A stretch of 59,517 nt of DNA from an uncultured Candidatus Altimarinota bacterium (lineage in GTDB: Bacteria; Patescibacteriota; Gracilibacteria; BD1-5; UBA2023): positions 1 to 59,517 of the forward strand of contig CAKZJF010000042.1 of NCBI GenBank assembly GCA_936941205.1, given 5' to 3'. Under the pieces are notes generated by a model that saw nothing but the letters and a program-made list of their open reading frames with translations, was not told the origin of the DNA and searched no databases. Each line of letters starts with the position of its first letter. The stretch's first letter is position 1. The translations under genes were made by a program, and so were the position numbers. Positions 57,797 to 59,517 of this stretch are shown in pieces.

Positions 57797-58324
57797 CTAC
57801 AATTTTCGTCTCGTTTTAATTCATTTTTCCTCTATGATAACAGGAGGATTTCAGACTACCGTAATATCACTTGGTACATTTTTTCCAGAAATAAGGGTCA
57901 TGGCTCAAATATTCACATTATTTCCAACAGAGATAGAACCGAGGATTGTAGCATTTGCCCCAATAGTTACATTATCTCAGACAGTTGGATGTCTTTTTCA
58001 TTGTTCTTTTCCAGTACCACCGAGAGTGACCCCGTGAAAAATCGTCACATTATCTCCGATGATTGCTGTCTCTCCGATAACTACTCACATACCATGATCA
58101 ATCATCATTCCCTCACCGATCTGAGCTCATGGATGAATCTCGATTCCTGTAATGCCTCGCATGATCTGAGAAACGAGTCGGGCAACGAATCGTATACGAT
58201 GAATATAGAGAGGATGTGTGATATGTTTATGAACAATAAGAGCATGGAGTCCTGGCATCAAGAGTGCTTCAGCCTTTGTTGCAGCAGGATCGCGATCGAG
58301 GATGACTTTATATTCTGATATCAT
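57797..58324 (-). CDS. cysE: Serine acetyltransferase
   Basis: 175 residues: a short helical N-terminus, HPGAQIGEGMMIDHGMGVVIGET, then [37 protein letters not shown], the left-handed beta-helix of CysE. It makes O-acetylserine, the precursor of cysteine. Shorter than E. coli CysE (about 270) but like many Gram-positive forms. The leader at 58346-58474 holds a Cys-rich ORF and a terminator, suggesting attenuation. Several TGA-coded Gly. Confidence 0.93.
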
Positions 58325-58345: not shown

Positions 58346-58429
58346 AAAAAAACTCTCTATCAAAAAAGAATAGAGAGCAAGAGAGTTTGGTTTTAGTATT
58401 TATAGACAGCAACAACACCTCTCTTGCTC
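58346..58429 (-). promoter_or_regulatory. Putative transcription attenuator upstream of cysE
   Basis: Minus-strand order: region 2 GAGCAAGAGAG (58419-58429, inside the leader ORF), region 3 CTCTCTTGCTC (58375-58385, its exact 11-bp complement), then a terminator CTCTCTAT (58370-58377)/ATAGAGAG (58353-58360) followed by seven Ts. Region 3 overlaps the terminator's first arm by 3 nt, so 2:3 pairing and the terminator exclude each other. Region 2 can also fold back on CTCCTCTT upstream. Confidence 0.7.
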
Positions 58430-58474
58430 AAGAGGAGTACAAAAGAAAATAGATGTATAGAATTTTCGAAACAT
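58400..58474 (-). CDS. Candidate cysteine leader peptide (24 aa)
   Basis: ATG 58474 to TAA 58400: a 24-codon ORF whose end reads ERCCCCL, with four consecutive Cys codons (TGT TGT TGC TGT) plus one more Cys upstream. It precedes cysE and overlaps region 2 of the attenuator. The codon run suggests sensing of Cys-tRNA supply by ribosome stalling. No Shine-Dalgarno is evident upstream, so translation is unproven. Confidence 0.55.
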   Translation of the reverse strand: MFRKFYTSIFFCTPLEQERCCCCL

Positions 58475-58486
58475 ATTCTTTTATTT

Positions 58487-58615
58487 AAAAAAAATCCCCG
58501 AACTATTCAGGGATTTGTATTGTTTTATATTTCATTTATAAGATAGAATCTACACAAAGTATCCCTGAGAAATCAGAGATGAACAACAAATAATGTATTG
58601 GAGTGAGAGATTCAT
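58487..58615 (-). promoter_or_regulatory. Upstream part of the cysE leader: second Cys-codon ORF and hairpin
   Basis: ATG 58615 to TAG 58550 encodes 21 residues with a Cys pair (IICCSS). It is followed by a terminator-like hairpin AATCCC/GGGATT with eight Ts (58487-58515). The arm ATCCCTGA (58507-58514) can instead pair with TCAGGGAT (58561-58568) near the end of the ORF. This may be a second attenuator or just the terminator of the gene upstream. Confidence 0.4.
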
Positions 58616-58693
58616 AGTGAAAGACATTATGTCTTAAGCTGAGGATATGAAAAACATGAAAAAAAGCAAAAAAACTATTAGTAAATAGAGATA

Positions 58694-59425
58694 TTAGAAT
58701 GAGGATGGATATCTTTCGGTAAATTTTCAGAGATCATTACTTAATTTATGAAAAATATTAATATCAGTTAATTTTAAATTTTCATATTTTAATTCTAGTG
58801 AAATTTGATAAATTAAAATTAATAAACTATTAATTCAATTTGAAACAAAGGCGAAAGAATGAGGAAAAGAAAATGGATGAACACCATCAATATATAAATC
58901 TTTTTTAAATTCAAAATTAAAACTCGTATCGCCAGATCAGATGGAGATATTATGCAAAGGATTAGCATGGGCTAATGTTCAATTGAGCTTATTTTTAACT
59001 TCTTTATGAAGTGTTAAAGTTTCTTGAATAGATTTATTTTGAGATTTACTTGTCCAATCAAGAATAATTCTTCTTATTCGACAAAGATCATTACCGTCTT
59101 TCACTAAATCTTCTCAGATAATCTTTAGGAAATTTTGTCCGTCAATTAAACAGGCACAAAGTAATTCTCAAGATTCTATCATTGTTCTCATTACTTGAAT
59201 TCCAGCACTTTTTTGACCTGTTTGAAACAAAAATACAACTAATAAATAGCTTCTTCTAATTGATGAAAGTAATCTCAGTAGTATATCGTGCTGTATATCG
59301 TGATTTCATTTAGTTCAAAAAAGTAAAAAGAAAATTTCATCAATAGAATTATATATGCTAATAATTTCAGGATACTTACTTTTATTTTCTCTATATATTC
59401 AGTGAATATAATCTCAAAATTCCAT
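58694..59425 (-). CDS. Hypothetical protein (243 aa)
   Basis: 243 residues with eight or so TGA-coded Gly, mainly helical (SLVVFLFQTGQKSAGIQVM-like amphipathic segments). ATG 59425 chosen. A His-rich/loop part HPFSFPHSFAFVSNG lies in the middle. No domain recognised. A terminator at 59439-59470 separates it from the partial upstream gene. Its end is 370 bp from cysE. Confidence 0.6.
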
Positions 59426-59438
59426 AAAAAGTATAGTA

Positions 59439-59470
59439 AAAAACTCCGTAAATCATACGGAGTTTTTTAG
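59439..59470 (-). terminator. Terminator
   Basis: aaaaaactccgta / tacggagtttttt hairpin, directly after the partial CDS at 59481. Confidence 0.85.
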
Positions 59471-59480
59471 AAAGTACAAA

Positions 59481-59517
59481 CTAATTCTTATTACCCTCCC
59501 GCACCTTAATATGCAAC
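59481..59517 (-). CDS. 3' end of a gene running out of the window
   Basis: Only LHIKVREGNKN and TAG are visible. It is called because the terminator follows at once; identity unknown. Confidence 0.35.
   Translation of the reverse strand, partial: LHIKVREGNKN

Follow-up and report, generated by a model that had tools for sequence, protein, structure and literature searches.

Two candidate cysteine-sensing transcription attenuators in series upstream of cysE in a Gracilibacteria genome read with genetic code 25

The DNA analyzed here (the window) is a contig of 59,517 nucleotides from an uncultured Candidatus Altimarinota bacterium of the Gracilibacteria (accession # CAKZJF010000042.1, assembly GCA_936941205.1), and its genes were read with genetic code 25. 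A gene on the minus strand had been taken for cysE in the initial annotation. Its product scored 194 bits with NF041874 (EpsC type; cut-off 150), which identifies it as a short-type (EpsC/CysE) serine O-acetyltransferase; the score against TIGR01172 (cysE) was 198.5 bits, slightly under the cut-off of 210.65. Two leader units lie in tandem before this gene. Leader 2 is nearest to cysE, which starts approximately 75 nt past the stop codon of this leader, and leader 1 adjoins leader 2 on its upstream side. The positions and structural elements of both units are listed in Table 1. Upstream of the leaders, a minus-strand gene (58694-59515) encodes a protein of 261 amino acids without a Pfam match, and a terminator-like site is located near the start of this gene at 59469-59437.

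Table 1. The cysE gene and the elements of its two leader units. Positions are those of the window; G024 is a genome from a different genus of the same family.
Feature	Position	Strand	Basis or counterpart
cysE, serine O-acetyltransferase, 175 aa, seven TGA read as Gly	57797..58324	-	profile models
Leader 2 ORF, 24 codons, ATG to TAA, MFRKFYTSIFFCTPLEQERCCCCL	58400..58474	-	sequence; G024 counterpart at L002 1347-1421
Leader 2 Cys12 codon (TGT), 5' of the protector hairpin; proposed sensing codon	58439..58441	-	G024 equivalent: Cys11-Cys12
Leader 2 protector hairpin, CCTCTTGAGCAAGAGAGG, 6 pairs, -6.7 kcal/mol, inside the ORF	58418..58435	-	folding
Leader 2 region 2, GAGCAAGAGAG	58429-58419	-	sequence
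Leader 2 Cys20-Cys23 codons; a stall there masks region 2	58406..58417	-	folding; G024 has Cys22-Cys23
Leader 2 region 3, CTCTCTTGCTC, overlaps the terminator 5' arm	58375..58385	-	exact 11-nt complement of region 2
Terminator 2, GCTCTCTATTCTTTTTTGATAGAGAGT and T tract, 10 pairs, -10.8 kcal/mol	58346..58378	-	folding
Leader 1 ORF, 25 codons, MSFTMNLSLQYIICCSSLISQGYFV; alternative ATG at 58615	58550..58627	-	sequence, shuffles
Leader 1 Cys14-Cys15 codons (TGT TGT), just 5' of the protector hairpin	58583..58588	-	sequence
Leader 1 protector hairpin, ATCTCTGATTTCTCAGGGAT, 8 pairs, -7.9 kcal/mol	58561..58580	-	folding
Leader 1 region 2, the 3' arm of the protector hairpin, TCAGGGAT	58568-58561	-	folding
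Leader 1 region 3, ATCCCTGA, part of the terminator 5' arm	58507..58514	-	exact 8-bp complement of region 2
Terminator 1, AAATCCCTGAATAGTTCGGGGATTT (58516-58492) and T tract, 11 pairs, -12.3 kcal/mol	58484..58516	-	folding

The initial annotation had described leader 2 as a 24-codon ORF ending in four consecutive cysteine codons, with an 11-bp complement to sequence overlapping a perfect terminator. These three elements were recovered. The cysteine run occupies codons 20 to 23 (TGT TGT TGC TGT) and is followed by one leucine codon; the complement between regions 2 and 3 is exact over 11 bp, with an overlap of merely 3-4 nt between region 3 and the terminator 5' arm (CTC plus a G that extends the stem); and GCTCTCTAT and ATAGAGAGT form a clean 10-pair stem followed by T7. 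Absent from that inventory were the protector hairpin, the Cys12 codon, and the second leader unit at 58627-58484. When the upstream 100 nt were shuffled 20,000 times with dinucleotide content preserved, an ORF with two adjacent cysteine codons arose in 0.7% of the shuffles; a four-Cys ORF arose in none, and neither did an 11-nt complement to the arm region.

All cysteine codons of leader 1 lie before its protector hairpin, and there is no later run. Given the terminator, a two-Cys ORF together with an 8-nt complement occurred in 0.02% of shuffles, a figure obtained after the fact since this unit had been spotted by eye beforehand. For the same reason, a mechanical scan is the fairer test of leader 1. 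The scan covered approximately 1.29 Mb of the 1.31-Mb genome to which the window belongs (G000; about 99%) and 40 kb of G024, and searched 377 terminators for a Cys-Cys mini-ORF upstream and for an 8-nt complement. Seven terminators had the mini-ORF, 23 had the complement, and three had both, against 0.4 expected. Two of the three are the cysE leaders of the window; the third (L254) results from reading the end of another gene out of frame. It is one of four other coincidences of a Cys-Cys ORF with a terminator in the genome. The one at L209 was also an out-of-frame reading at a gene end, and two further loci (L261 and L280) combine such an ORF and a terminator without the complement. In the G000 assembly, contigs C12 and C13 and contigs C11 and C27 form pairs of equal size (5044 and 3454 bases, respectively) and are possibly repeats or assembly duplicates.

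The G024 cysE gene is preceded by a single leader of 24 codons (L002 1347-1421; MIPTIHHSRLCCSLLEQTGGYCCR) with cysteine at codons 11-12 and 22-23. Its hairpin, CCTCCTGGAGCAAACTGGAGG, occupies the same position in the ORF as in leader 2, and a terminator (GCTCCATATTC and GAATGTGGAGT, then T7) separates the ORF from cysE. The complement between regions 2 and 3 is 6 nt, and therefore this leader falls below the limit of the scan. The local DNA similarity between the leaders of the two genomes was equalled by one of 3,000 shuffles, and the similarity of the leader peptides alone by 1.8% of permutations. The CysE proteins are only 56% identical; although the proteins have diverged to this extent, the leader DNA has remained similar, and the leader has thus outlasted much protein change. 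Absence of the ORF and the cysteine codons from relatives had been named as grounds for discarding the initial proposal, and both are kept in this other genus. The leader 2-type unit is found in two genomes, G000 and G024, and leader 1 in G000 only. About 4 kb downstream of its intact cysE, G024 has a further stretch (L004 1501-1641; G024:C9:7145-7285) that matches the last third of the gene and is perhaps what remains of a second copy.

We surveyed 353 genomes of the class with the CysE protein and with a leader RNA model based on sequence only. The only strong scorers with the model were G000 (118.8 bits) and G024 (129.3 bits); these two scores are high by construction, since both sequences went into building the model, and the informative part is that nothing else scores. 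Neither search found the leader in the other 351 genomes. The next match to the model, at 25.9 bits (L136; G351:C37:1840-1945), is a terminator before a small gene and has no Cys leader. The other serine acetyltransferase loci of the class that were inspected have no leader, and no Cys-run ORF was found upstream of cysE at 80 cysE loci from named genomes. The cysE gene of G019 (L003 1501-1850; G019:C105) is broken, with the first 50 residues missing and a frame shift, and no leader lies upstream of it. The pattern TGYTGYTGYTGY matched everywhere across the family and was uninformative.

The restriction to two genomes and the AT-rich sequence would suit an explanation by chance, in which ordinary terminators of the upstream gene happen to accompany spurious ORFs, and terminator 1 could indeed serve the gene at 58694-59515. 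Against this speak the shuffle tests, the genome-wide scan, and the conservation in G024, and we consider a chance origin of the arrangement highly improbable.

No TGA codon occurs in either leader ORF, and no Shine-Dalgarno site precedes either leader or cysE. Among the window genes, 4 of 56 have such a site, compared to 9% in the control, so there is no enrichment; because the genes of the window generally do not use Shine-Dalgarno sites, their absence before the leaders is no objection to translation of these ORFs. A promoter-like site at 58653-58626 would start the RNA near the second ATG of leader 1; promoter-like sites were no commoner than in shuffled sequences.

For the calculation of the alternative pairings, the ribosome was simplified to a footprint whose upstream edge lies 12 nt before the P-site codon and whose downstream edge lies 12 nt from the first base of the A-site codon. 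When the first cysteine codon occupies the A site, the RNA preceding the terminator 3' arm folds into an antiterminator of -19.9 kcal/mol in leader 2 (Cys12), -14.6 kcal/mol in leader 1 (Cys14), and -16.8 kcal/mol in G024 (Cys11). In all three leaders this structure uses part of the terminator arm, and in both leader 2 and G024 it is closed by a short GAGC/GCUC helix. Shuffled sequences folded as stably with the arm as occluded in 0.03% (leader 2), 0.13% (leader 1), and 0.8% (G024) of cases. A stall at the second early cysteine codon of G024 gave a much weaker antiterminator, matched by 6.8% of shuffles. When placed at the stop codon, the ribosome masked region 2 of leader 1. The protector hairpin of leader 2 and that of G024 had just emerged behind the ribosome, ending 15 and 13 nt before the stop codon, respectively. 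The antiterminator was also favored in the ribosome-free RNA of all three leaders before the 3' arm was made, and termination at high cysteine would therefore need the ribosome or the protector hairpin to be in place in time, which makes the relative timing of ribosome and polymerase important.

In each of the three leaders the first cysteine codon lies just 5' of the protector hairpin (Cys12 in leader 2, Cys14-Cys15 in leader 1, and Cys11-Cys12 in G024), as the tryptophan codons do in trp leaders. We take these early codons as the sensor because the ribosome meets them first, because no other cysteine feature is common to the three leaders, and because they are the only cysteine codons of leader 1. 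A stall at an early cysteine codon is expected to uncover region 2, which would give the ordinary polarity.

The cysE leader of the window thus probably consists of two ribosome-mediated transcription attenuators, one after the other, that respond to charged tRNA-Cys, a reading to which we assign a probability of about 0.68. Amino-acid attenuation had been proposed in the initial annotation for leader 2, and the proposal gains from the conservation in a second genus, the competing structures in three leaders, and the near-uniqueness of the arrangement in the genome. The locus combines a leader ORF with cysteine codons, an intrinsic terminator before cysE, a mutually exclusive antiterminator, early cysteine codons at which a stalled ribosome would mask region 1 and free region 2, and a counterpart in a relative. 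If transcription runs through both units, a ribosome would translate each leader of 24-25 codons. With ample cysteine, it would pass the early cysteine codon and reach the stop codon; region 2 would be masked by the ribosome (leader 1) or held in the protector hairpin (leader 2), and the terminator would form. With cysteine scarce, a ribosome stalled at the early codon would cover the 5' arm of this hairpin. Region 2 would then be free to pair with region 3, to which the first bases of the terminator arm belong, and the polymerase would read on. To get to cysE, the polymerase would have to pass both terminators.

The direction of the response is probably the ordinary one, in which low cysteine leads to read-through. 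The initial annotation had pointed out that a ribosome stalled on the four-Cys run would also cover region 2, and had called the polarity unclear and an inverted response possible. The masking holds: with the A site at codons 20-23 of leader 2, the antiterminator is removed and the calculation favors termination. The inversion does not follow, since an earlier cysteine codon precedes the hairpin. The later codons are kept in both genera and would act opposite to the early ones; this contradicts the ordinary polarity only if stalls beyond the early codon are frequent. An inverted or band-pass attenuator would make the later run (codons 20-23; 22-23 in G024) the main sensor, so that a mild shortage stalls the ribosome, masks region 2, and causes termination, with read-through only at severe shortage or none. 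The loss of the antiterminator in such a stall, the preference of ribosome-free RNA for the antiterminator, and the later codons themselves, which outnumber the early one in leader 2, would all fit such a device. However, the cysteine codons of leader 1 lie only before the hairpin, and a ribosome at its stop codon masks region 2, which is the trp arrangement; the ribosome encounters the early codon first; and shutting off the first step of cysteine synthesis during a cysteine shortage makes little sense. On balance, inverted control appears unlikely.

The usual consumer of O-acetylserine is cysteine synthase. With the PALP model (PF00291), only a threonine synthase was found in G000 and there was no match in G024; the cysKM model matched nothing in either genome, and PF01053 gave no match above its cut-off. 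In four other genomes of the class, all with a leaderless cysE, the cysKM model did detect clear cysteine synthases. As judged from marker genes, G000 is 99% and G024 93% complete, and the absence of a cysteine synthase is therefore likely rather than certain. The assumption in the initial annotation that the cysE product feeds cysteine synthesis consequently finds no support in this genome, which has no recognizable cysteine synthase. Both genomes encode a cysteinyl-tRNA synthetase, and the terminator scan found no Cys attenuator before this gene in G000. A two-stage sensor, with cysteine codons flanking the protector hairpin and a non-monotonic or two-threshold response, set before the cysE of a reduced cell that lacks cysteine synthase and makes O-acetylserine for another purpose or another cell, is a speculative scheme that we regard as unlikely.

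In a phylogeny of 91 CysE sequences, those of G000 and G024 are sisters (98/92 support) on long branches; they fall near clostridial and Helicobacter enzymes and apart from the other enzymes of the class. The gene was probably acquired laterally. T-boxes were found at four of 14 clostridial and other cysE loci, three directly before cysE and one (L054) approximately 1 kb upstream. Some clostridial relatives thus carry T-boxes, which suggests that the acquired gene came under a different form of tRNA-level control. The T-boxes at some clostridial cysE loci (L054, L061, L073, and L123) also raise the thought that the window leader is itself a T-box, or some other RNA that responds directly to tRNA or a metabolite; neither the window nor L002 has any Rfam match at gathering score, and this explanation appears extremely improbable.

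Amino-acid attenuation in Gracilibacteria or the candidate phyla radiation was not reported in the open-access literature that we searched. If the device works, translation and transcription are still coupled tightly enough to allow ribosome-mediated control in a reduced and recoded lineage that lacks Shine-Dalgarno sites, and two cysteine sensors stand in series ahead of one gene. Cysteine supply would then be something these cells monitor despite having no recognizable cysteine synthase. Two features are surprising, namely the tandem arrangement and the missing cysteine synthase.

The closest likeness is to the proteobacterial attenuators of the trp, his, leu, and phe type, which share the short leader ORF, the sensed codons before or in the protector hairpin, the competing 1:2, 2:3, and 3:4 pairings, and the intrinsic terminator before the structural gene. 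The window leaders differ from these in sensing cysteine, in the two units in series, in the cysteine run after the hairpin, and in belonging to a code-25 organism without Shine-Dalgarno sites. The Rfam families Phe_leader, His_leader, and Trp_leader had no match at gathering score, and the T-box family (RF00230) was not matched. The best matches below threshold were full-length ones to Phe_leader, with 28.8 bits for leader 1 and, among the best for leader 2, 22.8 bits, where the gathering score is 55; because a control terminator elsewhere in the window scored 18.4 bits, we judge this similarity to be weak.

The uORFC-8-2 motif before cysS of Rhodobacterales is a predicted Cys-sensing attenuator with an intrinsic terminator and tandem cysteine codons that are usually codons 14 and 15 (PMC8632094). 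Leader 1 has its cysteine codons at the same two positions, which may be coincidence; the likeness is one of description, and uORFC-8-2 controls a cysteinyl-tRNA synthetase in alphaproteobacteria, whereas the device in the window precedes cysE. Canestrari et al. in 2020, as cited in PMC13236596, reportedly described poly-Cys upstream ORFs before mycobacterial cys operons. These operons have short leader ORFs with a run of cysteine codons near the stop, as in leader 2 and G024, and no obvious or conserved terminator (PMC1262725). This resemblance would fit cysteine-rich upstream ORFs that act on translation or through their peptide, for example by thiol or metal sensing or in the manner of the mycobacterial poly-Cys ORFs, with the terminators incidental. 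Yet both window leaders come with a good intrinsic terminator downstream and an exact complement to its arm, and cysE begins well beyond the leader stop codon with no Shine-Dalgarno site to hide, which makes such a mode of action very unlikely.

The leader of Salmonella mgtCBR has tandem attenuators, in which two short ORFs control transcription of the coding region (PMC3641672). It shares with the window the two short ORFs in one leader; the genes and the organism are different, and the part of that account consulted mentions no cysteine sensing. The T-boxes of clostridial cysE genes serve the same enzyme and, as can be inferred from their class, also place transcription under the control of aminoacyl-tRNA; unlike in the window leaders, the tRNA binds the RNA directly and there is no leader peptide. 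The tandem device before cysE belongs to no described sequence family, and by all structural tests that were run it would work like a trp-type attenuator.
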